Shown here: one piece after another, positions 2,142 to 22,428 of the stretch | How positions within the stretch are numbered: the first letter of the stretch is position 1 | Layout of the letters: each line of letters starts with the position of its first letter | Made by a program: the position numbers and the translations under genes | DNA from: a virus | Length of the DNA stretch: 23,286 nt | IMG/VR virus record: IMGVR_UViG_3300021959_000410 | Location: 1-23,286 of that record | Reading direction: 5' to 3' (one strand) | Notes under the pieces: model-generated | Told to the model about the DNA's origin: nothing | Databases searched by the model: none | What the model saw: the letters and a program-made list of their open reading frames with translations, nothing else

Positions 2142-2609
2142 ATGAGTACATTAGATTTTGAATCATTCGACCTCGACGTAGAAGAAAAGCAACAAATCGA
2201 CACATTGCCGGAAGGCTGGTATGACGCGATGATCGAAAATGTTGAAGTTAGATCCACAAAAAGTGGGACTGGAGCCTATTTTGCGGTAACATATAACATT
2301 ATTGGCAATAACTACGCCAACCGCAAAGTATGGGGAAACGTGACATACAAAAATCCTAACGCAACGGCAGAGAACATTGGCCGTAAGCAGTTAAGCAAAA
2401 TGTCAGCCGCAGGCGGCCTGACCTCATTGCCATCCGATACCGATGAACTTATTGGTTTAACCATGTCGATCAAAGTTGGAGTCACTCCAGCAACTGATCA
2501 ATATGCGGCTCGAAATGAAGTTAAGGATTGGAAGTCGTCCGGCGGTGGATCACCATTGCCGAAAGCTCAGGAAACGAAATCTAACGCAGCACCTTGGGCT
2601 AAACAATAG
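2142..2609 (+). CDS. DUF669-type protein, probable single-stranded DNA-binding protein
   Basis: The 155-aa protein matches the DUF669 pattern: an opening Gly-Trp-Tyr-Asp-Ala-Met-Ile, then Ser-Thr-Lys-Ser-Gly-Thr-Gly, then Asn-Arg-Lys-Val-Trp, then a helix with Asn-Ile-Gly-Arg-Lys-Gln-Leu, and an Asn-Glu-Val late in the chain. This group is regularly found with Sak4-like ATPases and is thought to act as a phage SSB. The C-terminal 30 residues are low-complexity (Ser, Gly, Pro, Ala) and end Pro-Trp-Ala-Lys-Gln, resembling a flexible tail, although it lacks the acidic tip of bacterial SSB. The start has GGAG 8 bases upstream and sits two bases after the previous stop. ssDNA binding is inferred from family and context. 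Confidence 0.75.
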   Translation: MSTLDFESFDLDVEEKQQIDTLPEGWYDAMIENVEVRSTKSGTGAYFAVTYNIIGNNYANRKVWGNVTYKNPNATAENIGRKQLSKMSAAGGLTSLPSDTDELIGLTMSIKVGVTPATDQYAARNEVKDWKSSGGGSPLPKAQETKSNAAPWAKQ

Positions 2610-2619
2610 GGAGATATTC

Positions 2620-2871
2620 ATGTCTAAAAAAGAAGTAAAAATGGCTATCAAAAACATCGGAAGCCAAAAGAAAACAGCAGAATTGTTGAATGTTAGTCAA
2701 CAATATATAAGTAATTGCGTAATGAGAGGATATTTCCCAATTAGCCACGCAAAAAAAATTGCAGATAATTCAAACATTCATCCAATACATTTAATAAATC
2801 CAGAAGTTGAAAAGTTTGCAATTGATTTAGTTTTTCCAAATCAAAATAGAGAAGGAGAAAGTTATGTCTAA
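2620..2871 (+). CDS. Cro/YdaS-like HTH regulator, first copy
   Basis: This is an 83-aa protein with a helix-turn-helix at about residues 12-40: Lys-Lys-Thr-Ala-Glu-Leu-Leu, the turn Asn-Val-Ser, and the recognition helix Gln-Gln-Tyr-Ile-Ser-Asn. The layout is that of Cro/YdaS repressors with little beyond the HTH. Start at 2620 follows GGGAGA. By hand alignment it shares 43 of the first 73 residues with the next gene, so the two are tandem duplicates. The DNA is markedly more AT-rich than the genes before it. The stop codon is inside the first codons of the next gene (shared ATGTCTAA, 2864-2871). It probably binds an operator as a dimer; no operator can be assigned. Confidence 0.75.
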   Translation: MSKKEVKMAIKNIGSQKKTAELLNVSQQYISNCVMRGYFPISHAKKIADNSNIHPIHLINPEVEKFAIDLVFPNQNREGESYV

Positions 2872-3166
2872 AAAAGAAGTCAAAGAGGCAATTGAAATTC
2901 TTGGCGGCCAAAGAAAAGTCGCAAAATTACTAAAAGTTACTCAGCAATATGTTAGTAATTGTTGCATAAGAGGATATTTTCCGCCTGTTCATGCAAAAAA
3001 AGTTGCACATCACGCTAAAGTTAATCCAATACATTTAGTGTCTCCAACTCTTGAAAATTTCATGATTGATTTTATGTTTCCAATAGATGATGAACCACGA
3101 GGTAATGAAAATTATCAAGAAATTGACAGTAATCATCCTTATCATCCAGCTTTTGGACTTGTTTAA
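2864..3166 (+). CDS. Cro/YdaS-like HTH regulator, second copy
   Basis: A 100-aa paralogue of the preceding gene with the same opening (Met-Ser-Lys-Lys-Glu-Val-Lys) and HTH (Val-Thr-Gln-Gln-Tyr-Val-Ser-Asn-Cys). It has about 17 extra C-terminal residues rich in Glu, Asn, His and Pro. Recognition-helix positions differ (Val-Met becomes Cys-Ile just after Ser-Asn-Cys), so the copies may read related but distinct operators or form heterodimers; this is inference. The start overlaps the upstream stop by 8 bases and follows GGAGAAAG. A very stable hairpin follows directly. AT-rich like its twin. Confidence 0.75.
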   Translation: MSKKEVKEAIEILGGQRKVAKLLKVTQQYVSNCCIRGYFPPVHAKKVAHHAKVNPIHLVSPTLENFMIDFMFPIDDEPRGNENYQEIDSNHPYHPAFGLV

Positions 3167-7414: not shown

Positions 7415-7684
7415 TCAAGCCCCGCGTTTTGGGGCTTTTTTTATGGATTCCATGGTGAATCTAGCCTCTCTTTTGATCCAAGCCTTCGGTATATGCATTT
7501 TGGCGTTTGATTCTTTTTTGGATATGGCGGATGCAACGCATATTGCATTGTCGTCCTCGGCCACGATAAAGCCCAAGGTGTAGCAATCGTGTAGCTCAGG
7601 CTTTTTTGTTTCTTCCCATCCTGAGTCAGCTACGGCATCGACCCATTCTATATAGATACATTTATGGTCTGTAGCAGTCGACAT
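7415..7684 (-). CDS. Small conserved phage protein, unknown function
   Basis: An 89-aa protein, the last of the leftward operon. The first half reads Cys-Ile-Tyr-Ile-Glu-Trp-Val-Asp-Ala-Val and Tyr-Thr-Leu-Gly-Phe-Ile-Val-Ala-Glu-Asp-Asp. It then continues with Ile-Pro-Lys-Ala-Trp-Ile-Lys and a basic tail ending Pro-Lys-Arg-Gly-Ala. This layout is familiar from small phage proteins of similar length (a short beta-rich domain with a Leu/Val-Gly-Phe core), but no function is known to me. The start is 23 bases inside the lipoprotein gene. The final codons form the opposite-strand terminator hairpin, so the tail sequence is under a second constraint. Confidence 0.6.
   Translation of the reverse strand: MSTATDHKCIYIEWVDAVADSGWEETKKPELHDCYTLGFIVAEDDNAICVASAISKKESNAKMHIPKAWIKREARFTMESIKKAPKRGA
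7417..7442 (+). terminator. Intrinsic terminator of the rightward operon
   Basis: AAGCCCC (7417-7423), a 7-base loop, GGGGCTT (7431-7437) and a T run (7436-7442) make a classic rho-independent terminator for + strand transcription. On the - strand it lacks a U tract, so it is one-directional. Its bases also encode the last residues of the leftward gene that ends at 7415. Confidence 0.9.
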
Positions 7685-7901
7685 CTATGTCACAATCCTC
7701 AAAATACCTGTCCATCATAAGCTCCTGCATAACCGCATGCCGGATCTCTTCCTTAGCCCGATCAGTGATCAAGGCTGGGCATTGATAAGTCACATTGTAC
7801 ACCGGAGCAGGCCTAGCAGCGTCCAATATCTTCTTGGCCGCAATGACGCTACATCCTGAGCAAGCCAGTGCTATAAGCAAGCTCAGGATGCGGATTAACA
7901 T
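7662..7901 (-). CDS. Putative small lipoprotein, candidate outer spanin
   Basis: A 79-aa protein with an Arg at position 4, a hydrophobic core (Leu-Ser-Leu-Leu-Ile-Ala-Leu) and Ala-Cys14-Ser-Gly-Cys17. That makes a lipoprotein signal likely, with Cys14 or Cys17 lipidated; neither lipobox is perfect. The mature part is short, has a Pro-Ala-Pro-Val segment and an acidic end rich in Asp and Cys. Size, lipidation and place near a holin-like gene fit an outer-membrane spanin (Rz1-like), but no adjacent inner spanin embeds it and the low proline content is atypical. ATG shares one base with the preceding TAA. The exported lipoprotein call is moderate; the spanin role is inferred. Confidence 0.55.
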   Translation of the reverse strand: MLIRILSLLIALACSGCSVIAAKKILDAARPAPVYNVTYQCPALITDRAKEEIRHAVMQELMMDRYFEDCDIDVDCYRP

Positions 7902-8038
7902 TACTTTTTCTTTTTGCCAGCCCTACGTTTTACCGAATAAGCGATGGCAACAGCCTGTTTTGGCGGTTTGCCAGCCTTAATTTCAGCCTCAACGTTCTTT
8001 TGAAAGGCTTTTTTTGATTTGCTTTTTATTAATGGCAT
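7901..8038 (-). CDS. 45-aa lysine-rich phage miniprotein
   Basis: Read directly from the - strand: ATG at 8038, stop TAA at 7903-7901. It opens [12 protein letters not shown], has a helical middle ([10 protein letters not shown]) and Gln-Ala-Val-Ala-Ile-Ala-Tyr-Ser, and ends in four Lys. Fifteen Lys/Arg and two Glu make it highly basic. I recall near-identical miniproteins in many unrelated phages, so it is a real conserved gene. Its function is unknown; DNA or RNA binding is a reasonable guess. Both ends use TAATG stop-start overlaps. Confidence 0.8.
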
Positions 8039-8154
8039 TAGTATCCCTTTTTAGCTTTGGTTTTCTTGGACTTTTTTTTAGCCATTTTCTTCATCATGCA
8101 TTCACCAGCGGCCATGCATTTCTTAGGGCTTGGGCAAGTTGGGCAAGTTTTCAT
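8038..8154 (-). CDS. 38-aa Cys-rich, lysine-rich miniprotein
   Basis: ATG at 8154 is preceded by GGAG; stop TAA at 8040-8038 overlaps the next ATG. The N-terminal half holds four cysteines (Cys-Pro-Thr-Cys-Pro, then Lys-Lys-Cys and Gly-Glu-Cys), a spacing that could bind zinc. The second half is a Lys-rich tail. There are thirteen Lys and one acidic residue. Gene order and coupling support expression. I do not know a family; it looks like a minimal nucleic-acid-binding zinc knuckle. Confidence 0.65.
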
Positions 8155-8163
8155 TTTGTCTCC

Positions 8164-8634
8164 TTAACGTTTAACTGCGGATGATCCTACATAGAAACTA
8201 AATACCATTATAAGCACTTGGTCATATGTAGTCCTGAACATGGCCGCGTGTTCAATAATCTTCCACTCAGTCCATGTTTTTGTTGTGTCAATAAGCCCAA
8301 ATAGATACTTGCCGCCAGACTTCATTTCAACTGGCACTGCAATATCTATTGGTGCAATCATTGGCGCAAGGCTGATAACAACCACCATAGCTAGAAAAGC
8401 CAAAACCAATATGCGCCTGGTTAAGCTAGAAAACTTGTCAGAAGTCCTTACCTGAAACTCTTTGTTTGATAGCTCTGAATGGATTTTCTCTCGTTCTAGA
8501 TCGAACGTGAGCTTCTCCATCATCATTTTATGTTGGTCTGCTTTTGCCTTTTGCGCGTTCGCCAGTAAACCGGAGACAATGCCCATGAGATTACCGCCAG
8601 CAGCCAATAAAACTTCCGGCCCCATTCCAAACAT
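8164..8634 (-). CDS. Holin-like three-segment membrane protein
   Basis: A 156-aa protein with hydrophobic segments at about 7-27 (Val-Leu-Leu-Ala-Ala-Gly-Gly), 75-94 (Ile-Leu-Val-Leu-Ala-Phe-Leu-Ala-Met) and 138-151 (Val-Leu-Ile-Met-Val-Phe-Ser-Phe-Tyr-Val-Gly). A charged helix lies between the first two. The end, Phe-Tyr-Val-Gly-Ser-Ser-Ala-Val-Lys-Arg, resembles the C-terminus of phage three-TM holin-like proteins. A role in timing lysis is plausible, supported by the neighbouring lipoprotein, but no endolysin is visible in the window. The start follows AGAGGAAG. Its first 112 bases are shared, in another frame, with the 3' end of the HNH nuclease gene upstream. Confidence 0.6.
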   Translation of the reverse strand: MFGMGPEVLLAAGGNLMGIVSGLLANAQKAKADQHKMMMEKLTFDLEREKIHSELSNKEFQVRTSDKFSSLTRRILVLAFLAMVVVISLAPMIAPIDIAVPVEMKSGGKYLFGLIDTTKTWTEWKIIEHAAMFRTTYDQVLIMVFSFYVGSSAVKR

Positions 8635-8924
8635 AACTGCTTCCTCTTAAATCGTTTTAAATATCTAATAGCTTTACTTAAACTTTTAGGATTGTCTTTA
8701 AAAAGCCCAAGCCCAGTATTACATTTCTGACAAATTAATCCTCTAATTTGATCAGATTTGTGGCAGTGATCAACAGATAATTTACCTCTATCTGTATCCT
8801 TGCCGTCTATCCCGCAGATCAAGCATTTATTGTCTTGCCTAAATGCTATTTCAACGTAATCTTTAAAAGTAATTCCGTAAGCGTTCTTGTAACGAGAATT
8901 ACGCCTAGCTACTGGATCAGCCAA
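8523..8924 (-). CDS. Endonuclease VII-like HNH nuclease, TTG start
   Basis: A 133-aa protein with the recombination endonuclease VII signature: Cys34-x2-Cys37, Val-Asp-His-Cys-His at 51-55, Arg-Gly-Leu-Ile-Cys65-x2-Cys68-Asn, then Leu-Gly-Leu-Phe-Lys-Asp-Asn-Pro. Family members cut branched DNA before packaging (T4 gp49) or act as free-standing mobile nucleases. The only possible start is TTG at 8924, directly after the in-frame TAA of the upstream miniprotein, and no Shine-Dalgarno is visible. Translation likely depends on reinitiation. Residues from about 97 on are overprinted on the holin-like gene and lie outside the normal core, so an original stop may have been lost. The sequence is more AT-rich than its neighbours. 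Confidence 0.8.
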   Translation of the reverse strand: MADPVARRNSRYKNAYGITFKDYVEIAFRQDNKCLICGIDGKDTDRGKLSVDHCHKSDQIRGLICQKCNTGLGLFKDNPKSLSKAIRYLKRFKRKQLCLEWGRKFYWLLAVISWALSPVYWRTRKRQKQTNIK

Positions 8925-9074
8925 TTATTTTTTTTTGGCAGTTTTCTTAGACTTCCTAAATGCCGAAGCAGTTGGAGCGCCTTTAGTACCTGGCTTTCTC
9001 ATTTTCTCACCAGATCCAGCTTTAATCCTCTCACGCTTTGCGTGAATGTTTGCGTAAAGTCCTCGTTTCATCAT
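8925..9074 (-). CDS. 49-aa basic phage miniprotein
   Basis: ATG at 9074 overlaps the preceding TGA; a second ATG follows at once (9071). The stop TAA is at 8927-8925. It reads Lys-Arg-Gly-Leu-Tyr-Ala-Asn-Ile-His-Ala-Lys-Arg, then Gly-Ser-Gly-Glu-Lys-Met-Arg-Lys-Pro-Gly, then Gly-Ala-Pro-Thr-Ala, and ends in a run of Lys coded by nine A. I recall this pattern from many phage genomes, always as a tiny separate gene. Seventeen Lys/Arg against two Glu suggest nucleic-acid or membrane binding; the function is unknown. Confidence 0.8.
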   Translation of the reverse strand: MMKRGLYANIHAKRERIKAGSGEKMRKPGTKGAPTASAFRKSKKTAKKK

Positions 9075-9346
9075 TTACTCTTTTTGTGTTTGTTAGCAAA
9101 ATTTCTTGCGGCCTCAACACTTCCAAAGCCCCAAGCCTTTAACGCCAACGCTTTACGAGTTGGCCTGCCCTTAGAATCAGTCATAGGGCCTTTCATCCCT
9201 GCGAATCTCGCGGCGAAAGATACGCGTCTTGGATTGGTTCCAGACTTAACTGGAGCCTTCAAGTCTCCGCCCTCTTTATTCTCAAAGTATTTACGGCCTT
9301 TTTCGTTTAGGCCACCTTTTGGATTTTGATAGACTTTTTTAACCAT
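9071..9346 (-). CDS. Small basic conserved phage protein
   Basis: A 91-aa Lys/Arg-rich protein with the landmarks Gly-Gly-Leu-Asn-Glu-Lys-Gly-Arg, Leu-Lys-Ala-Pro-Val-Lys, Asn-Pro-Arg-Arg-Val-Ser-Phe-Ala-Ala-Arg-Phe and Gly-Arg-Pro-Thr-Arg-Lys-Ala-Leu-Ala-Leu. It reminds me of a conserved phage domain listed as DUF6321, which I cannot verify here. No function is established. It starts by TAATG overlap with the coiled-coil gene upstream (CGGAG just before). It belongs to the same run of basic small proteins as the next gene. Confidence 0.7.
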   Translation of the reverse strand: MVKKVYQNPKGGLNEKGRKYFENKEGGDLKAPVKSGTNPRRVSFAARFAGMKGPMTDSKGRPTRKALALKAWGFGSVEAARNFANKHKKSK

Positions 9347-10059
9347 TATTGCTCCGACAATATGTTAGTCATAGCTCGATCTATGCGCTTGTTCATGCGC
9401 TCTTCAAGCTCTTTCATTTGTGCGTCAACTGACACAACTCGCTCGTCAAACCATTTCTGAGCGTTAACAATTGCTTCTCTGTTGCGCTCTTCCCATGCAA
9501 CTGCATTTTCATTAAATGCCGCCATCCTTGATTCAAACTTAGATTGCGCGTCATCTAGTGCCTTGCGACTTTTGTCTAAGTTTGCCTGAGACTGCGCATC
9601 TACCGACTGCAATCTTTCGTCAAACCACTTTTGAAAGTCCTCGACAAGTTTGCGGTTGGAGCTTTCGTTTTCTTTAGACTTGCTATCTATCTGTCCAATG
9701 CGATCTTCAAAATAGATTTTAGCTTCTGCCAAAACATCACGATTCCGTTTTTCAACATCTCGCATGGCTTTTTCAACATCAGATAAAGCGCTTTCAACAT
9801 TGATAACATCAGTTCGTAAATCTTCCTTAATATCTCTTGCATAGCTAATTGCCTCCTCTACTTTAATCATAGAAGTGTTTACTTGAGTCTCGATTGCGCC
9901 TGGATCAAGATTTCTGAGCTTTGCTTTTAATCCCTCATAATCTTGCCAGAACAACGCGGCTCCCCAAACGATACCGGCCGCGCTACTAAGCGCAGTCAAT
10001 ACCGCAAAAACTTTTCCACCAGTAAATTTAATGCCGCCTACGTTAATTTCTGTACTCAT
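9346..10059 (-). CDS. Membrane-anchored coiled-coil protein with ~29-residue repeats
   Basis: A 237-aa reading from ATG at 10059; an ATG at 10068 is too close to GGTGG to be favoured. One transmembrane helix (Val-Leu-Thr-Ala-Leu-Ser-Ser-Ala-Ala-Gly) lies near residues 17-38 and the rest is a long charged coiled coil. From about residue 105 a unit of 28-30 residues repeats four times, centred on Trp/Tyr-Phe-Glu/Asp-Asp/Glu-Arg and a following Val/Ile-Asp-Ala/Ser-Gln/Lys; copy three is degenerate. This topology (N-terminal anchor, long coiled coil) is seen in inner spanins and in envelope-spanning proteins. A lysis or envelope role is inferred, not shown. Confidence 0.7.
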   Translation of the reverse strand: MSTEINVGGIKFTGGKVFAVLTALSSAAGIVWGAALFWQDYEGLKAKLRNLDPGAIETQVNTSMIKVEEAISYARDIKEDLRTDVINVESALSDVEKAMRDVEKRNRDVLAEAKIYFEDRIGQIDSKSKENESSNRKLVEDFQKWFDERLQSVDAQSQANLDKSRKALDDAQSKFESRMAAFNENAVAWEERNREAIVNAQKWFDERVVSVDAQMKELEERMNKRIDRAMTNILSEQ

Positions 10060-11308
10060 ATTGTTCATCCACCATTTCGTTCCATTTCTTATCGTCTAAA
10101 TAAATTGCGCCCCAAAGTCTATCTTTTAGCTTGTTAGTTTCCTTGATTTCTATAATATCGTAAAACTCAGCATCTCGAAGTTGCGCCACTGCCTCATAGC
10201 TTGGCGCTGACATTGACATAACCGCAATAGCTACCGCCTGAGCCTGCGCGTCATAGGCTGAATCAAAATTAGCGGCAACCTGTTGCATACTCATTTCGGT
10301 GATCGTTATGACATTAGACTTGGTTTCAGAATTGCCAGCAGAAGATGAACTAGATGATTCTTGTTGCTCAGATTGCGCCTGCTCAACTTTAGCGTCAGGC
10401 TCTTGCGAAGATTGCTCTTGCGCCACTTCTGGCTCTTGCCGTTGCTCTGCTGGAGCCATTTCTGGAGTTGGTTGTTGATCTGACATTTCGATCTCAACTA
10501 CAACCTCTTCTGACATTTCTGGAGACTCCATTGGAGCTATCTCCATGTCTGGCATACTCATGTCTGCCATGTCCATTGGAGCGTCCATAGTTGTATCCAT
10601 CCCAGGCATGTCAATCTCAACAACTATTGGATCAAGCGCTGGCATTGTAGTATCAACGCCAACATCCATAGATGGATCAATGCCAATGTCGGCAATTGGA
10701 TCTATTGCTATATCAGAGAAGTCTGGATTGATAATGTCATCTAGCGCAGGATCGGTAACTAGCATCTCGGTGTAAGTGTTGTAATCGAGATTGAAATATA
10801 CGTCTGTAGTCGCGCTGGCAAAGTATCCATTCCATCCGCCTGGATCTTGCGAAGTAAAGCTAATAGTTGCGGTGCTGTAATCTTCTGTGGCTGTAAACGA
10901 GAAATTGTAATCTACGAAGTAATCATTGTAATTTAACGTTACTGTATCGGTGTAAGTGTTATTCCCATAATTAACCGTAACAGTAAGAGTGTCGTAGTAG
11001 CTGGTGTCGGCAGTTTGCTCGCACCAAGCGCCGCTAGGAGTGTTGTTGCATCCGTATGCGCTCATGCCGTATCTTATGTCGCCAATGAACTCGTACTGGC
11101 TTAAATCTATTACTTGAGATACGGTGGCTTCTGTATTGCTATAAACCCATATAACACTGTCAGCGCCAGATTCCCAAAAATCTATATCGCCATCAATGAT
11201 CCATTGATCATTGTCAATAAGATTGTCGGTAGTATCTACCGCAAGACAAAAACTAGGAATTAGTAGCGATAATGCTACTTTTCGCAATAGTAAGGATGAA
11301 GTAAGCAT
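10043..11308 (-). CDS. Large exported protein with acidic low-complexity linker
   Basis: A 421-aa protein. Residues 1-23 look like a signal peptide (Lys10, hydrophobic core, Ser-Phe-Cys-Leu-Ala end). Residues 26-180 are Thr/Tyr/Asn-rich and beta-like, with a possible disulfide pair Cys87 and Cys96. Residues 185-325 are low complexity: Asp/Met/Pro motifs, then Glu/Gln/Ser and a Ser run. Residues 333-421 form a second, conserved-looking helical domain ending in charged and Tyr residues. The likely site is the periplasm or cell surface, or the virion surface if the leader acts otherwise. The start overlaps the upstream stop by 34 bases, and no good Shine-Dalgarno is visible. Function unknown. 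Confidence 0.7.
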   Translation of the reverse strand: MLTSSLLLRKVALSLLIPSFCLAVDTTDNLIDNDQWIIDGDIDFWESGADSVIWVYSNTEATVSQVIDLSQYEFIGDIRYGMSAYGCNNTPSGAWCEQTADTSYYDTLTVTVNYGNNTYTDTVTLNYNDYFVDYNFSFTATEDYSTATISFTSQDPGGWNGYFASATTDVYFNLDYNTYTEMLVTDPALDDIINPDFSDIAIDPIADIGIDPSMDVGVDTTMPALDPIVVEIDMPGMDTTMDAPMDMADMSMPDMEIAPMESPEMSEEVVVEIEMSDQQPTPEMAPAEQRQEPEVAQEQSSQEPDAKVEQAQSEQQESSSSSSAGNSETKSNVITITEMSMQQVAANFDSAYDAQAQAVAIAVMSMSAPSYEAVAQLRDAEFYDIIEIKETNKLKDRLWGAIYLDDKKWNEMVDEQYEYRN

Positions 11309-11847
11309 TTTTGTTTATCATGCTTGTCTTTAAACTTTTCTGACCTATCAACCTCTTTTGCTAATACTAACTTTTCGTATTCAAGCGCACCTTCTGGCAC
11401 TCGATCAAGATTAGCAAGCCATGCTTGTTTTGCGTTTTTGCCAATCAAACCATTGATTGGGCAGTATGTACCAGCGTCCCACATTGATTGAAACACTCTA
11501 TAATCCGCCATACATAATAATGAAACTGCGGCAACTTTCATGCCCATAGCGTATAGCTGTTTTGACAATTTTAAGTTTTCACAATTAACGTCACGGATGG
11601 TTGTTGCGCCAGATATTCCAAGTATCTGAGTTTGCACCGCACCGGCAACTCCAGTAGTACAGATATCGGTATTGTTTACGATTACGTTTGGAGAGTGTGC
11701 GCTGTTTACTGTTTTATCTACAGTAGTAGTGCCGACTGTATTTGATGAGCTAGAAACCGTACTAGATACCGTGCTACTTACAGTATCTGTTGCGGTAGAA
11801 GTTGCAACTGGGATAGTTAAAAGTAGCGCTAGTAGTAGTTTTCTCAT
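11275..11847 (-). CDS. Exported six-cysteine phage protein
   Basis: A 190-aa protein with an N-terminal signal peptide (Arg-Lys-Leu-Leu-Leu-Ala-Leu-Leu-Leu, cleavage near Ala-Thr-Ala). A Ser/Thr/Val repeat stretch follows at 21-45. The folded part carries Cys63, 89, 112, 129, 181 and 188, with the landmarks Asp-Ile-Cys-Thr-Thr-Gly, Val-Gln-Thr-Gln-Ile-Leu-Gly and Gly-Met-Lys-Val-Ala-Ala-Val-Ser-Leu-Leu-Cys. I recall this core from marine phage hypotheticals. An even number of cysteines in an exported protein suggests disulfides. It shares ATGA with the upstream miniprotein and overlaps the 421-aa gene, so the two exported proteins are made together. Confidence 0.7.
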   Translation of the reverse strand: MRKLLLALLLTIPVATSTATDTVSSTVSSTVSSSSNTVGTTTVDKTVNSAHSPNVIVNNTDICTTGVAGAVQTQILGISGATTIRDVNCENLKLSKQLYAMGMKVAAVSLLCMADYRVFQSMWDAGTYCPINGLIGKNAKQAWLANLDRVPEGALEYEKLVLAKEVDRSEKFKDKHDKQKCLLHPYYCEK

Positions 11848-11969
11848 CGGAATAATGGACTCTTGGCTTTAGATTTTTTTGCTATTCTTGCTAATTTTTT
11901 ACGTTTACTTAACTTTTTTCTTTTAGGAACTGGCTTTGCTTTTACGTCGAAAGATTTAACTTTGGCCAT
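11844..11969 (-). CDS. 41-aa lysine-rich miniprotein
   Basis: Read directly: ATG at 11969 (sharing one base with the upstream TAA), stop TGA at 11846-11844 (sharing ATGA with the next gene). Content is 14 Lys and 4 Arg with a single Asp; the centre is Lys-Arg-Lys-Lys-Leu-Ser-Lys-Arg-Lys-Lys. No fold is recognisable. The double coupling and fixed position argue that it is translated. Polycation-like; DNA condensation or RNA binding is a guess. Confidence 0.65.
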   Translation of the reverse strand: MAKVKSFDVKAKPVPKRKKLSKRKKLARIAKKSKAKSPLFR

Positions 11970-12220
11970 TACTTATCAGCCTTTCCGTCAATCTTAGCGT
12001 CGATAGCATCTAACTTATCAATAACTCTATCAACAAATCTTTCAAATTCTTGGCGCTTAACATAGCTTCCGGCGACTAAAACTTCTACTTCACTGAGTCT
12101 TGTTTGAAGCCTCGATTGAGCCTTCTGCATGTCTCGTATAGAACTCCATATGGTATGAGCAAGAAATCCTAACGATGTAGTAGCTATACCAAAAACCCAG
12201 TTGAATAAAGTTTGATCCAT
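11969..12220 (-). CDS. Small membrane protein with coiled-coil tail
   Basis: An 83-aa reading from ATG at 12220, which shares one base with the preceding TGA; an upstream ATG at 12238 would extend into the previous gene. Residues about 5-25 are a membrane segment (Trp-Val-Phe-Gly-Ile-Ala-Thr-Thr-Ser-Leu-Gly-Phe-Leu). The rest is a heptad-like helix (Leu-Gln-Thr-Arg-Leu-Ser-Glu-Val-Glu-Val-Leu) ending in Asp-Lys-Leu-Asp-Ala-Ile-Asp. This small N-anchored coiled-coil type is common near phage lysis genes. The role is unknown. Confidence 0.65.
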   Translation of the reverse strand: MDQTLFNWVFGIATTSLGFLAHTIWSSIRDMQKAQSRLQTRLSEVEVLVAGSYVKRQEFERFVDRVIDKLDAIDAKIDGKADK

Positions 12221-12555: not shown

Positions 12556-13512
12556 TTAAGATGTTGTGTTGTCAAATACGCCGCCGTGTGCTTTCTCGTT
12601 GTTACATACGAGAGTTAGCTCGGTTACGACTTGACGCTTCGTGTTGTCACCAGTTTTTGCAAGCTCAGTGTTTGTAGTTCCGCGAAGAACTGCAACTGAC
12701 CACATGTCGTCTTGCATGATGAACACGTCGCGTGAACGGTTTTCACGAGATGGAAGGAACTCAATCGTTCCCCAAGGCGTGACGTACACGTCGAGAGATT
12801 TAACAACTTTCATGTCACCAGCCTGAACTGCTGAACGCTGATTGTTGTTACCAGTGAAAGCAAGAGCTTTGTTCATCTGGAATGCTGAAAGATAAACAGT
12901 GTCTGGCTTGCCACCAGCTTCCCAAATTGACTGCATAACACCGTCAAAACGAGTTTGATCAAACGCTTGAAGCGTAGTCGTCTCGTCTGTACGAGCGTCA
13001 GTTCCGTCACCAGTTGGATCTGCACCTTCGTTGTCGCCAAAGTCGGTGTTAGAAATCAACCATGCAGGAGCACCAGCAAGTTCACGAGCAGTTGAGCTAT
13101 TGCCAGCAACGCGAGCGTTGTTGTCAAAGAGAGCTTTCTCAATGTCAAGTTTCTGCTCTTTAGCAGTCTTGAGCATTTGATAAGCAATCTCAGATGCGCG
13201 ACCAGCTTTATTCAAACCTTTGTCAGTATCAGGAATGATAACTGCGTTCTTAAAGATTTGAGTGTAGTTACCACGACGTACAGTTGCTGAACGTGAGTTA
13301 GCAGTTGTGTCATCGCCTTCAATGTGAGCGTTAGCCGCAGAAGAGCGAAGAGCATCTGTTTGCCACTCATGGTAAGTGTTGGTTGCTTTTACTTTTTTTG
13401 CTTTAGAGTAAAAAGGTGTATCTTCTGGAGATACGTCATAAATGATATTAGAGAGATCCTCTCTAATACCGACAGCATCATAGCTGTCAAAAGTATTGGT
13501 TGGTTGTGCCAT
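12556..13512 (-). CDS. Major capsid protein, SU10/DUF5309-like
   Basis: The 318-aa shell protein has a typical opening for this family: Thr-Asn-Thr-Phe-Asp-Ser-Tyr-Asp-Ala-Val-Gly, Arg-Glu-Asp-Leu-Ser-Asn-Ile-Ile-Tyr, then Ser-Pro-Glu-Asp-Thr-Pro-Phe-Tyr. The middle carries the helical spine (Glu-Ile-Ala-Tyr-Gln-Met-Leu-Lys) and the C-terminal part the Arg-Gln-Val-Val-Thr-Glu-Leu-Thr-Leu strand. It forms the icosahedral head on the scaffold encoded just upstream. The start follows GAGGTAAAC. Codon use and composition are more GC-rich than its neighbours, consistent with a highly expressed gene. A strong terminator follows. Confidence 0.9.
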   Translation of the reverse strand: MAQPTNTFDSYDAVGIREDLSNIIYDVSPEDTPFYSKAKKVKATNTYHEWQTDALRSSAANAHIEGDDTTANSRSATVRRGNYTQIFKNAVIIPDTDKGLNKAGRASEIAYQMLKTAKEQKLDIEKALFDNNARVAGNSSTARELAGAPAWLISNTDFGDNEGADPTGDGTDARTDETTTLQAFDQTRFDGVMQSIWEAGGKPDTVYLSAFQMNKALAFTGNNNQRSAVQAGDMKVVKSLDVYVTPWGTIEFLPSRENRSRDVFIMQDDMWSVAVLRGTTNTELAKTGDNTKRQVVTELTLVCNNEKAHGGVFDNTTS

Positions 13513-18514: not shown

Positions 18515-20490
18515 TATTGAACTTCCTCAATTTCGTATTCAACACCGTCTTTTGTAACTGTTCCAGCACCTTGTGTAGTTGTGCTTTCAGAATATTGAGT
18601 TTTTTTGTTTTCAAGCCAATCTTGCATTTCTGTGTAACTATTAAACTCTTTTAATTTGCCTTCGTCATCTGTAAATATAGATGATGGTTGTTCAATGTTT
18701 TTTAAACCTCTTTGCTCTTTAAATGGGCCATAAACGTTACTATCAAGCCTTTTGTTGTATCGATCAATTACGCTTCTTTGAATTTTTTGTCTTATATAAG
18801 TCATGTACAACAAAGCGGCTGGAGTTGTCTCAATTGTTCCTGTAAGAACTTGTCTCAAGAATTCTCTTTCTGCCGGAGTATCAAGTCCTCTTGCCCCAAT
18901 TCCAAGCTCTCCAATTGCGCCAAATACATCAGCACCAAGTGTTGCGTTAATCAACTCTGCGTCAGTTAATCTGTTTACTCTTGCTTTATCTCTACTTCCA
19001 AATCCAACCAAGAACGCATCAACACCTTTTCTAAATTCAGCAAATGGGCCAGTTTCAAATCCTTCTTTGCCTTCGCTAACTGCGCCACGAACAATAGCGT
19101 CAGCAGTATTGTTTAGAGAATAAATTCTTCCAACTGCTTTTTCAGCATCATCAATTAATTTAACGTCTCCAGGAGCAAATTCTTTGCCCATTTCTTCATA
19201 ACCTTTTCCAATGCCTTTGTCACCAAGATTAACAGTCACGGTCGGAGCAGTTGATTTACTGTATGGGCCTCCTTTACGTTGGCCAGTTGTCTCGCTAACT
19301 TGGATTCGACCACCTGTTAATGGATCGTGTTCAATTTCTTTGTATTCTGCGGCAGTAAGCTCTCTAAATGTTTCTTCAGGCTTTTTGGTAAATTCAGCAT
19401 ATGCTTTATCAAAGTCTAAAGAGCCAGTAGCAACTGCTTCTGCAAGATCCTTTCTACCTTTGCTTAATAGCCAATTAGCGCCATCAATAGCGTTTTTGCG
19501 CTTTTGAATGCCTTCCATTTGGCCTTGCAAATATTGTCCCCATTGTTGATTTGGGAATGTGCTTAATGAGTTTAGCCCAATGGCTACCGCCAATAGGAAT
19601 TCTTGGTTACCAAAAGTCTTTTTGTAATGATCTGGAGAGCCATAATTATTAGAAAATCTATTTGCGGCATCGTTTAATTCATCAGCAGTTAATCCAGTAT
19701 CTTGACCTTTATATGAAATCCTTCCACTGCCATCTTTTGCATAATCAATTAAATCAGACTGCAATCCAATACCGCCGCCTGGTTTAAGCCCCATTTGATC
19801 AATAGTCTGTCCCTGTCCCGCTCCTGCTGCTTCCATAGCAGACACATATTGATTAGATGATCTTGGATCCATTGATCCAGCTATTGGGCCATTTTCTGCT
19901 ACTCGATTAACAGGAACTTGATTTTGTTGGTTTTGATAGCTTTGAACCGCATCCAATATGTTTGGGAAAGATGGAGCGCTTTGTTGTTGGTTGTTATTCG
20001 GAGATTGATTTGGAAAAGTTATTCCAGCACCTTGTGATACATCAATTCCTTGATTAGAAATTCTGTTATTTCTTCTATTTATAACGTTATTTGCAAATTG
20101 AGTAGCATTGTCTGCCAATGTAGGCGGTTGCGGATTAATTGTTTGTACATCTGGATAATTAATATTAGGAACTTGTGGGTTCAAAAGAGAAACATTAGAA
20201 CCAGACGGTCTTTGAGATGAAAATTGAGGCATCCTTTGATCTGGCGGGATTGATGAAAATTGAGGCGGTGAAACAGGATTGCCGCTTTCATCAATTTGTA
20301 CTCCATTATTTTGTTGTTCAGCCAAATTTACGCCAGTCAACATTGGCGGAAGAGAAGCATCAAATTGCTCATTATAATAATCACGCCCCAAACCAAGCAT
20401 ATTCATTCTTGCTTGCCGTTGAGCCTCTATTCTTTTTCTTTCTTCAGCTAATTGAGCCAGCCTAATTCTTCTTTCTTCATCCGTCATCAC
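18514..20490 (-). CDS. Large internal virion protein (658 aa), N/Q-rich
   Basis: Residues 1-35 are a charged helix (Glu-Glu-Arg-Arg-Ile-Arg-Leu-Ala-Gln). Residues about 45-225 are low complexity, very rich in Asn, Gln, Pro and Ser, with repeated Pro-Gln-Phe-Ser-Ser. From about residue 400 a structured helical domain follows. It contains Asp-Asp-Ala-Glu-Lys-Ala-Val-Gly and the motif Gly-Leu-Asp-Thr-Pro-Ala-Glu-Arg-Glu-Phe-Leu with Val-Leu-Thr-Gly-Thr-Ile, which I recall from phage minor structural proteins. No lytic active site is evident. It probably enters the cell with DNA; this rests on context. Confidence 0.65.
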   Translation of the reverse strand: MMTDEERRIRLAQLAEERKRIEAQRQARMNMLGLGRDYYNEQFDASLPPMLTGVNLAEQQNNGVQIDESGNPVSPPQFSSIPPDQRMPQFSSQRPSGSNVSLLNPQVPNINYPDVQTINPQPPTLADNATQFANNVINRRNNRISNQGIDVSQGAGITFPNQSPNNNQQQSAPSFPNILDAVQSYQNQQNQVPVNRVAENGPIAGSMDPRSSNQYVSAMEAAGAGQGQTIDQMGLKPGGGIGLQSDLIDYAKDGSGRISYKGQDTGLTADELNDAANRFSNNYGSPDHYKKTFGNQEFLLAVAIGLNSLSTFPNQQWGQYLQGQMEGIQKRKNAIDGANWLLSKGRKDLAEAVATGSLDFDKAYAEFTKKPEETFRELTAAEYKEIEHDPLTGGRIQVSETTGQRKGGPYSKSTAPTVTVNLGDKGIGKGYEEMGKEFAPGDVKLIDDAEKAVGRIYSLNNTADAIVRGAVSEGKEGFETGPFAEFRKGVDAFLVGFGSRDKARVNRLTDAELINATLGADVFGAIGELGIGARGLDTPAEREFLRQVLTGTIETTPAALLYMTYIRQKIQRSVIDRYNKRLDSNVYGPFKEQRGLKNIEQPSSIFTDDEGKLKEFNSYTEMQDWLENKKTQYSESTTTQGAGTVTKDGVEYEIEEVQ

Positions 20491-20498
20491 TTAGCCCT

Positions 20499-20927
20499 TT
20501 AAAATCCAAATTTATTCAAAAATAATCCTAATCCGCTACTAGATTGATCCAAACCAAAATTTGTTGGGGCTTGAAAATTATAATTAGGAGCCATTCCTTC
20601 TTGTCCAATTGTCTGTTGCGGCATCTTTAAGCCTGGCTCTGAGATTCCACCAGTATTGAAAGAGTAAGTAAGCGGAATTTCTTTATCTTTCATGAATGCA
20701 TCTGCAAGCCCTTGAAATCCTGCTCCGTCAACCTTCTCCTCCTCCATCATTGGAGTGGGCTTCAACATATTTGGCCCTGAAGCCAACAATCCGCTAGTAG
20801 GTTTTGGCATTTGAGCGGCAACATTTGGATTTCTAGCCATCACAGTGCTTGCGTCGCCTATGACATTCGCGCCAACTCCAAGTTGATTAGGATTTGTATA
20901 TAACCCGTAAGGATCAAAAGGATTCAT
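20499..20927 (-). CDS. Pro/Asn/Gly-rich probable virion protein
   Basis: A 142-aa protein of low order: many Asn, Pro, Gly and Met (Asn-Pro-Phe-Asp-Pro-Tyr-Gly, Met-Pro-Lys-Pro-Thr-Ser-Gly), with one short helix near 68-82 and a hydrophobic C-terminus (Leu-Gly-Leu-Phe-Leu-Asn-Lys-Phe-Gly-Phe). The start follows AGGAT. Its place between two virion genes, with gaps of only a few bases, suggests a small structural or ejection component. No family is recognised. Confidence 0.5.
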   Translation of the reverse strand: MNPFDPYGLYTNPNQLGVGANVIGDASTVMARNPNVAAQMPKPTSGLLASGPNMLKPTPMMEEEKVDGAGFQGLADAFMKDKEIPLTYSFNTGGISEPGLKMPQQTIGQEGMAPNYNFQAPTNFGLDQSSSGLGLFLNKFGF

Positions 20928-20930
20928 GTC

Positions 20931-21911
20931 TTATCCTACAGAATAAATTTTTGAATAATTAACTCTCAGATATCCATCATCGCCTTTAACAACAAATTCT
21001 GGATTAGTTTTTTGAACTTCTTGAGCCAAAACTCCAATGGCAGGAAACTTATCTGCCCCGATAGCCTTGCCCAACTTGTTCCATGCCCACTTGTACAAAT
21101 TCATACCGTTAGGAAGTTTTCCTATTTGCTTAATGTCTTTTTTAAGCCTTACATCTGAAAACATTCCAGCTTGAGCGCCTATGCCTGCTATTGTAGATAG
21201 CATGTTAAATAGCCCTGGGCTTCCGGTTTGAGTCTGAGTTGTAGGCATTGGAGTTGCTTGCAAAGCGTTTGACAAGTAATTTAGGCTAGTTTCTGGCGCT
21301 GCTACATAACCACCATATTGAGCCTTAGCCGCATCAATTAGTGCCTGCTGTACGCCTTGCTGTAGCGCTCCCTGTTGCATGAGATTCTGCTGTACGGTCT
21401 GACCCATACCAAAACCAAGGTTAGATATATTGGCAAGCTGATTAGCCGCAGCTAGACGCTGTTGAGCGCCTTGCAAGCCTGATCCAACGTTGTACTGTTG
21501 GGCCGCCATTCTATTAGCTATATCAGACAAAGCGGCTTGTTGAGCTTGAGTATATCCAGCCTGCCTTAATCCGGCAGATGATTGCGCTAATTGTTGAGCA
21601 ACATTTCTGCCTAATTCAGCCTCTGCAATACCATGTCGAGAACCGCCAAAAGCTCTAGCGGCTTGAGCTTGCGCACCAAGGTTATTAAGCCCCATCTGAG
21701 CGCCACGCAATATATCGGCCTCATTAGCCTGTATGACTTGCTCAGTGTAAGGATTCATGTATGGCGATAAGTCTGTAGTGGCCAATTGCCCAGCCCGTAC
21801 TTGCCCAGGCCTGTATCCCATGCCAGCTATAGATCCTAATCCAGCGCCATATACTCCTTGAGCCGCAGCTTCATTTACGTTTGGTATTCCGCCTTGTGGT
21901 GCGCCTGCCAT
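20931..21911 (-). CDS. Virion protein with C-terminal S74-type intramolecular chaperone domain
   Basis: The 326-aa protein has two parts. Residues 1-245 are Ala/Gln/Gly-rich and helical with an early Asn-Pro-Tyr-Thr-Glu-Gln, like internal or stopper virion proteins. Residues about 250-326 match the S74 domain: the Ser252-Asp253 cleavage dyad in Phe-Ser-Asp-Val-Arg-Leu-Lys, Gly-Val-Leu-Ala-Gln-Glu-Val at 293-299, and Val-Asn-Tyr-Ser-Lys-Ile at 317-322. In tail spikes this domain drives trimer folding and then cuts itself off between Ser and Asp. Here it ends right after the Tyr-Ser-Lys-Ile strand, a short form. The start follows AAGGAAT. Confidence 0.8.
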   Translation of the reverse strand: MAGAPQGGIPNVNEAAAQGVYGAGLGSIAGMGYRPGQVRAGQLATTDLSPYMNPYTEQVIQANEADILRGAQMGLNNLGAQAQAARAFGGSRHGIAEAELGRNVAQQLAQSSAGLRQAGYTQAQQAALSDIANRMAAQQYNVGSGLQGAQQRLAAANQLANISNLGFGMGQTVQQNLMQQGALQQGVQQALIDAAKAQYGGYVAAPETSLNYLSNALQATPMPTTQTQTGSPGLFNMLSTIAGIGAQAGMFSDVRLKKDIKQIGKLPNGMNLYKWAWNKLGKAIGADKFPAIGVLAQEVQKTNPEFVVKGDDGYLRVNYSKIYSVG

Positions 21912-21933
21912 GTTATATTCCTTTACTTATAAT

Positions 21934-22428
21934 TTATGTGTATCCTATTTGACCAGTGCCATGAAACCTTGTTACTTGCGAAGTGCCTCCGCCACCACCA
22001 CCAGTATTAGGTGGTGGAACATATAAGTTTTCATAATTTCCACTGTAAGGATCAACAAACAACTTGTTGTATGCAGAAACTTGTCCTGGCCTTCTGGCAG
22101 CTAATTCTGCAACTGCTTGGTCAAATAAATTGCCAGAAGAGTATCCTTGAAGGCCTCCAGCATAAGTTGTTGGAGTTGGAGCCATGTCTTGCAATGGAGA
22201 AACTTGCCCTCTTGGAACAAGACCAAATGCTTCTGCAGCGTTTATATTTGATCCAAAAGCAGCCATTTGAGTAGGATTAAAAGCCGCAACGTCAGGCCCA
22301 TAATATGGCCTGTATCCTAGCACTTGAGCTTGTTTTGCCCTTTCAAGGTTTTCTTTTGCGTAAGGTTTAACCCACTCAGGAATGTCGTTTGTTTGAGTTC
22401 TTGATCCGCCTTTTCCGCCGCCGCCCAT
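21934..22428 (-). CDS. Small glycine-rich internal virion protein
   Basis: A 164-aa protein beginning Met-Gly-Gly-Gly-Gly-Lys-Gly-Gly, with a helical stretch (Trp-Val-Lys-Pro-Tyr-Ala-Lys-Glu-Asn-Leu) and Phe-Asn-Pro-Thr-Gln-Met-Ala-Ala-Phe. It ends with a poly-Gly segment and a short aromatic tail. A glycine-rich start followed by Pro-Glu-Trp-Val is common in podovirus internal proteins that precede a larger Ala/Gln-rich partner, as here. The start follows GGGAGA. A role in head or ejection is likely; specifics are unknown. Confidence 0.6.
   Translation of the reverse strand: MGGGGKGGSRTQTNDIPEWVKPYAKENLERAKQAQVLGYRPYYGPDVAAFNPTQMAAFGSNINAAEAFGLVPRGQVSPLQDMAPTPTTYAGGLQGYSSGNLFDQAVAELAARRPGQVSAYNKLFVDPYSGNYENLYVPPPNTGGGGGGTSQVTRFHGTGQIGYT

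Follow-up and report, generated by a model that had tools for sequence, protein, structure and literature searches.

Why should the late operon of a phage of aquatic bacteria carry several very small, strongly basic proteins, and do these proteins belong together? The question is raised by the IMG/VR virus record IMGVR_UViG_3300021959_000410, analysed here as a whole (23,286 bases; the window), in which five mini-genes, named A to E, lie on the minus strand behind the major capsid gene. Lengths are in amino acids (aa), and ORF denotes an open reading frame.

7901..8038, minus strand: A, 45 aa, phrog_2423 family (PHROG E 2.3e-20)
8038..8154, minus strand: B, 38 aa, four-cysteine mini-protein CxxCPxPxKCxAAGxC with a lysine tail (ORF and viral-contig relatives)
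8925..9074, minus strand: C, 49 aa, phrog_16028 family, GLYANIHAKRxRIKAGSGEKMRKPGxKGAPTAxAF (PHROG E 8.1e-28)
9071..9346, minus strand: D, 91 aa, Pfam DUF6321 (PF19846; 87.9 bits against a cut-off of 28.5)
11844..11969, minus strand: E, 41 aa, 44% lysine plus arginine, found only in close relatives

We propose, with a probability of roughly 0.4, that one late, head-associated, nucleic-acid-binding function is built from A, C and D as exchangeable modules, and that B and E are accessory basic peptides. The peptides would be made late in infection, and A would gather them at the prohead and packaging machinery. DNA entering or filling the head would be bound by C and by the basic termini of B, D and E, while D would act as a small folded helical domain giving the unit a third contact. 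A few peptide copies would then stay in the virion.

Five basic genes under purifying selection

An earlier sequence-only reading of the window described five small genes rich in lysine and arginine, and the composition bears this out. Lysine plus arginine (K+R) makes up 33, 34, 35, 25 and 44% of A, B, C, D and E, and their net charges are +13, +12, +15, +17 and +17. A K+R fraction of at least 0.26 is reached by A, B, C and E (not by D), compared with 3 of the 142 other window ORFs of 35-95 aa; nucleotide-shuffled windows contain a mean of 0.81 small ORFs at this level.

A to E are real genes under purifying selection. Against the related viral locus L089, whose three longest alignable segments share 76-78% DNA identity with the window, the ratio of nonsynonymous to synonymous substitution rates (dN/dS) is 0.05 for A, 0.18 for B, 0.07 for C, 0.07 for D and 0.04 for E, values that rest on small counts of 6-19 synonymous differences per gene. 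Against a second locus, L008, in which E was not found, it is 0.12, 0.14, 0.01 and 0.07 for A to D. An absence of purifying selection, one of the two outcomes that the sequence-only reading had named as fatal to its proposal, is not what these values show. The order E-D-C-HNH-B-A is kept in L089, where no homologues were found of the window's 190-aa, 421-aa, 240-aa, holin-like and lipoprotein genes; the mini-genes thus outlast those neighbours.

Selection can also be followed across whole families. For pairs with a synonymous divergence (dS) of 0.2-1.5, the median dN/dS is 0.15 for C, 0.18 for D, with a wide interquartile range of 0.09-0.51, and 0.31 for A, while 66-79% of all pairs across the three families are saturated at synonymous sites (74% for C in the first sample). 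C keeps a median identity of 77% in the 836 of 1275 locus pairs with unalignable TerL, among loci largely picked by similarity to C or D, and about 80% in a sample seeded with A. Because it stays similar where TerL can no longer be aligned, C looks tuned to something universal, for example nucleic acid.

A, C and D as a single modular unit

The suggestion that at least two of the mini-proteins are conserved across unrelated phages proved an understatement. In tblastn searches of 50,697 phage records (E ≤0.01 for A and C, ≤1e-5 for D), A was found in 532 records, D in 482 and C in 84. Matches to A fall mostly in phages of Pseudomonas, Acinetobacter and Escherichia, and those to C mostly in phages of Synechococcus, Prochlorococcus, Pelagibacter and Roseobacter. 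B and E had no match in these records at E ≤10 with the low-complexity filter on. Relatives of B are encoded in 79 viral-contig stretches and relatives of E in 15, the latter all 88-100% identical, and C relatives account for 597 of 599 matched stretches, that is, at least 597. Since only the best 80 stretches each were kept for A, C and D, figures from the viral-contig scans for these three are lower bounds and the sampled loci (numbered L001-L430, partly overlapping, with genes called by our own ORF rules) are biased to close relatives. A set of 167 records, counting the window, its own copy L001 and one contig with 99.8% identity, includes 107 with C, 135 with D, 45 with A, 7 with B and 3 with E.

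Co-occurrence of the mini-proteins, proposed earlier as a check, is found. Among 76 A-seeded loci, 55 hold C, 48 hold D and 46 hold both; A, C or D is present in 50 of 78 B-seeded loci, although about 15 of these, like the E-seeded loci, appear related to the window's phage. Where A, C and D are separate genes (34 loci, the window's own copy L001 left out), their order is D-C-A in 20, A-C-D in 12 and C-D-A in 2, with C in the middle in 32. Twelve single ORFs among L001-L430 fuse the modules, and within these proteins A precedes C and C precedes D without exception:

A-C-D fusions (4): L267, L326, L295 and L294, the last two near-identical
C-D fusions (5): L065, L190, L200, L216 and L271
A-D fusions (2): L268 and L325
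A-C fusion (1): L045

The fusions in L065, L190 and L216 carry an extra, fourth module of SPAQ/SKSQ type at the N terminus; for the S module of PHIKZ165.1, the literature found mentions PHIKZ165 and not 165.1. A, C and D therefore behave as one modular unit, split or fused. B is a frequent companion and E is found only in close relatives, and the five peptides are no uniform group.

The crowding of basic genes in the window extends to other loci. Among small same-strand genes, 70 of 141 directly beside C or D are strongly basic, as against 89 of 582 further off, an excess reached in 0 of 2000 within-locus permutations (L001-L007 left out). The neighbours belong to phrog_7595, phrog_17747, phrog_14910, phrog_25774 and DUF6496 proteins. 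Because basic small genes gather beside C and D elsewhere, the window's cluster is an example of a wider pattern. Five lysine-rich mini-families occupying slots by C or D (L091:4535-4909, L154:3686-3856, L016:7118-7396, L156:4009-4176 and L159:3920-4087) comprise phrog_14910, phrog_17747, phrog_7595 and two without a PHROG match. Phrog_7595 matches phrog_220, 'minor head protein and DNA pilot' (E 3e-6), a result that concerns the neighbour family only. We do not claim a relation between D and the RRKSFKARH module of phrog_7595, for which 15 aligned columns gave a probability of 34%.

The literature searched on DUF6321 and related motifs yielded no description of the A-C-D unit or of the bacterial C proteins considered below, and within that literature, where no paper names DUF6321, both appear undescribed; DUF5872 is named in an algal-virus paper. 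A and D are each present in some 500 phage records and C in 84, none with an assigned function. The modular unit turns these three families into one testable question, that of a basic module's dealings with DNA at the phage head.

A proposed link between A and the head

A covers positions 1-44 of the 52-position phrog_2423 profile, nearly its full length, and the family carries no function label. Two observations point to the head. In the Obolenskvirus phages Ab59 and C62, A forms the N-terminal module of an annotated prohead protease (52.5 and 53.3 bits). Furthermore, the mature virion of the Pbunavirus Pa193, analysed by liquid chromatography-mass spectrometry, is reported in a preprint to contain gp20, gp21, gp24, gp27 and gp31 (PMC11042391). 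The Pa193 homologue of A is a 68-aa protein at 19739-19945 of NC_050148.1 (77.4 bits against a profile built from 26 sequences, a Pbunavirus homologue among them). Since the published residues of gp24 coincide exactly with the ORF at 20594-22030 of that record (EMSGE at 301-305), and the lengths of gp28-gp30 fit the genes that follow it, gp21 is, by numbering from the portal, most simply this homologue. With a homologue apparently in a mature virion and another at the N terminus of the prohead protease in two Acinetobacter phages, A would be the head-associating part of the unit, and a head or virion link of A is supported. The Pa193 homologue carries a net charge of only +2, which argues that A is not simply a polycation.

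C and a possible contact with nucleic acid

C covers positions 1-49 of the 50-position phrog_16028 profile, again a family without a function label. Its AlphaFold (AF2) model, of moderate confidence (predicted local distance difference test score, pLDDT, 81; predicted template modelling score, pTM, 0.40), has two helices at 8-18 and 36-45. In bacterial and archaeal genomes, 85 stretches related to C were found, of which 80 loci were kept, and the profile confirmed C in 77. Several of the bacterial homologues end in very basic tails, and contact with nucleic acid may for this reason fall to C and to the basic termini of B, D and E. The Ala-Lys-Pro tail of the homologue on bacterial contig L194 scores 32.1 bits against Pfam HC2 (PF07382), below the cut-off of 40, whereas the similar basic tail in L227 has no HC2 match in Pfam. 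The window's C lacks such a tail and likewise has no HC2 match in Pfam. Nucleic-acid binding, suggested earlier for the mini-proteins at large, thus fits C by the basic tails of several bacterial homologues, although the histone-like match is sub-threshold and confined to one homologue.

The neighbourhood of C was read at ten bacterial loci, with one to three neighbours each. Seven have ordinary neighbours (L211, L220, L232, L255, L256, L258 and L260, of which L220 and L258 share one context), including Lhr helicase, OpgC, glycosyl hydrolase, lytic transglycosylase and TctC; one, L176, lies in a prophage alongside a P22-type portal; and the neighbours in L192 and L257 have no Pfam match. Within one bacterial genus, C is present in 7 of 61 genomes.

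D, B and E

D, the least lysine-rich of the five, is predicted by AF2 to be a compact domain of four helices (pLDDT 89, pTM 0.75). It has no sequence match in the PDB. A Foldseek fold search there gave nothing credible (best E 2.8) and a second fold search returned a single chain (Z 2.4, root-mean-square deviation 3.3, 56 aligned), although a missing match does not make a new fold. Fold matches in BFVD are mostly DUF6321 proteins, others being labelled ferritin/DPS, AAA and 'Virion protein', with weak matches only to prohead protease and XkdF; D-like domains occur by fold match in A0A6J5N5R9 and A0A6J5R4H4, ferritin/DPS-labelled and AAA-domain proteins of uncultured phages. Profile comparison found no relation between C and D, and searches of PDB sequences with C, A and phrog_7595 gave weak, unrelated matches only.

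B belongs to no PHROG family, and its Pfam match is sub-threshold (E 0.73). Its cysteines are invariant in all five aligned B proteins, which makes it a candidate zinc-binding type, with no Pfam family above cut-off. E has no Pfam or PHROG match.

The late operon and its neighbours

The late genes of the window lie on the minus strand and are read leftwards: portal, scaffold, capsid, a terminator-like hairpin, and then a tail of small genes that includes A to E. The placement of all five past a capsid terminator, as first noted, is correct, since they follow this strong hairpin.

12556..13512, minus strand: major capsid protein (phrog_1328, E 6e-88), upstream of the hairpin and the A-E cluster
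12547-12529, minus strand: terminator-like hairpin behind the capsid gene, 7 G-C pairs then T7
8523..8924, minus strand: endonuclease VII/HNH gene directly after C (PF02945, E 1e-21)
8164-8634, minus strand: holin-like gene, named by reading of the ORF only
7662-7901: lipobox protein (lipoprotein gene), named by reading of the ORF only

The claim that every mini-gene is joined to its neighbours by overlaps holds for the starts of E, D, C and A, which stand at -1, -1, -4 and -1 nucleotides (nt) relative to the upstream stop. B starts 9 nt past its upstream neighbour, with a strong ribosome-binding sequence in front, and overlaps downstream only. Late co-expression of the five is plausible from this operon.

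An endonuclease VII/HNH gene adjoins C in L089 as well, and an annotated HNH gene lies directly upstream of C in DSL-LC05. In the window, the endonuclease VII and holin-like ORFs (both within 8164-8924, minus strand) overlap by 112 nt; L089 yielded no homologue of the holin-like gene, and there the nuclease gene leads directly into B. Within the basic cluster lies an acidic counterpart, a 421-aa protein (10043-11308, minus strand) with a net charge of -64 and Pro-Met-Asp/Ser-rich repeats, which has no PHROG match at E ≤0.01. Elsewhere in the window, a 326-aa protein (20931-21911, minus strand) matches a DNA ejection protein family and its end matches tail-fibre profiles, and two tandem related small proteins at 2476-3166 (plus strand) look by eye like helix-turn-helix (Cro-like) paralogues.

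Weighing the proposal and its alternatives

Several observations weigh against a shared head-associated function. In pairs with unalignable TerL, identity drops to 44% for D (1405 of 2628 pairs) and to 62% for A (171 of 351), so that these two modules may follow lineage-specific partners. The assignment of gp21 in Pa193 requires four ORFs from the portal to gp24, where GenBank annotates three; we place the missing fourth at the unannotated 20072-20287. Copies of C among bacterial genes indicate that C can be of use away from virions. Octadecabacter Antarctic DB virus 2 (39,241 bases), the top match of the window's capsid protein in the phage records (73% identity), has C at 2606-2752 (81 bits) and no match to A, B, D or E at E ≤0.1; most of the set is therefore accessory and not required for that capsid. 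P-SCSP1q and P-SCSP1u carry D and then C directly after the capsid gene, which speaks for the proposal; a cryo-electron microscopy study of P-SCSP1u, however, models the capsid, portal, adaptor, nozzle and fibre, with C and D not mentioned in the part of it available to us. The T4-GC 119 protein, which carries D in S-E7 and is there labelled 'structural' by annotation only, is labelled hypothetical in S-SM1, where three others nearby are labelled structural; a virion role for cyanomyovirus D proteins (the S-E7 and RB11-B labels) was not used, being annotation only. Finally, the minis are hardly closer to head and packaging genes than other small genes are, as set out next.

Two alternatives are serious rivals to a head-associated, nucleic-acid-binding unit. 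The peptides may be packaging or assembly factors that are never kept in the virion, aiding terminase, portal or prohead protease with DNA and then being left behind; we consider this possible, if on balance unlikely. In 44 loci with a recognised TerL and portal (L001 left out), 75 of 78 minis lie between the two, compared with 81 of 322 other small genes, as in the order TerL-D-C-A-portal of L048, a count biased by loci that are centred on the minis and mutually related, and one that speaks for the head-associated unit as well. However, 45 of 70 minis and 178 of 300 other small genes have TerL, TerS, portal or capsid no more than three genes away (L001-L007 left out), which is no real excess. 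The two controls disagree, and packaging help, one of the roles first suggested, is possible from the former and gains nothing from nearness. We dropped nearness to packaging genes as evidence, and left unused the counts within five genes of a recognised head gene (D 92/129, C 52/93, A 33/42). Individual phages also place the modules near terminase genes. DB virus 2 has C two genes past its large terminase gene. The protein of cyanomyovirus Syn9 that ends in DUF6321 (gp114) lies two genes past the small terminase gene, gp16, and about twelve before gp17, and T4-GC 119 is similarly placed in S-SM1. In the window, endonuclease VII adjoins C. On the other side, the window's set stands behind the capsid gene, away from the portal; gp21 of Pa193, which numbering identifies as the A homologue, is among the proteins reported from the mature virion (PMC11042391); and the constancy of C where TerL is unalignable makes a specific TerL surface an unlikely partner. 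Beside the minis we also noticed a family of 120-122-aa genes (L051:4084-4446 and 12 further loci) that directly follows a portal-sized gene in 11 of 13. Its two scanned members are DUF5856 in Pfam; the PHROG label, 'starvation-inducible transcriptional regulator', alone points to Dps, a reading that we rejected.

Alternatively, C might bind a universal cell target (the ribosome, RNA, RNA polymerase or the nucleoid), the set serving to reprogramme the dying cell. Such host takeover or RNA binding, which we judge rather unlikely, would agree with the high identity of C in the A-seeded sample, with the widely saturated synonymous sites in the first sample, and with the presence of C among ordinary bacterial genes. 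DNA is an equally universal target, however, the genes belong to the late operon and not to the early genes, and A is tied to head proteins.

The head-associated unit can also be stated more boldly, with A as a widespread prohead-entry module that carries a C-D DNA-binding payload into tailed-phage heads. We hold this stronger form to be unlikely. If it were true, the heads of many aquatic phages would hold a small set of chromatin-like proteins along with the DNA, the next cell infected would receive that set, and the C part of the payload would be common to bacterial proteins with very basic, partly H1-like tails.

It is improbable that the five peptides neutralise the packaged genome in the manner of histones or protamines. 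By arithmetic, about 108 copies of the whole set would give 10% charge neutralisation of an assumed 40-kb genome; one bacterial C homologue has the sub-threshold HC2-like tail; and basic DNA-binding proteins occur in PBCV-1 virions (PMC3281028). The same 2012 paper on chlorella viruses states that no evidence exists that basic proteins contribute much to the neutralisation of phage double-stranded DNA, a view that a positive result of this type would change. Bulk DNA condensation, as first suggested, is not borne out: the A homologue of Pa193 is barely charged, and A, B, D and E have no match in DB virus 2, whose capsid is related.

A role as lysis adjuncts, in which the cationic peptides act on the envelope with the neighbouring holin-like and lipoprotein genes, would suit the place of B and A between those two genes and is nevertheless very improbable, as L089 keeps A to E with no homologue of either gene found, and A and C adjoin head genes elsewhere. 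Least probable of all are mobile mini-gene cassettes without a shared function, spread by adjacent HNH/endonuclease VII genes: the HNH-type gene beside C in the window and DSL-LC05 and the patchy spread (C in few genomes of one genus, the other four not found in DB virus 2) speak for them, but strong purifying selection and order-preserving fusions call for a shared function.

Comparison with known systems

The modules can be compared with four known groups. A resembles DUF6496 (PF20106) in a KQAxAIA-like motif; it has no Pfam match at E ≤1 and so does not fall within that family. A DUF6496 protein does, however, occupy the slot beside C in L126 (38.8 bits), and similar ones occur in L047, L122 and L134. 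Likeness to HC2, a histone H1-like family, is seen in the L194 tail alone and at a sub-threshold score, and the window's C has no such tail. Within DUF6321, D is a stand-alone protein of 91 aa with an extra C-terminal helix, whereas Syn9 gp114 and its S-E7 relative are proteins of about 440-530 aa that end with the domain.

A further parallel is offered by the internal head proteins of phage T4, which are small, basic, late and head-associated and possess head-targeting peptides. In proteins of this type, the targeting peptide is N-terminal and is cut off by the prohead protease. The mini-proteins of the window are likewise small, basic and probably late, and A could be their targeting part.

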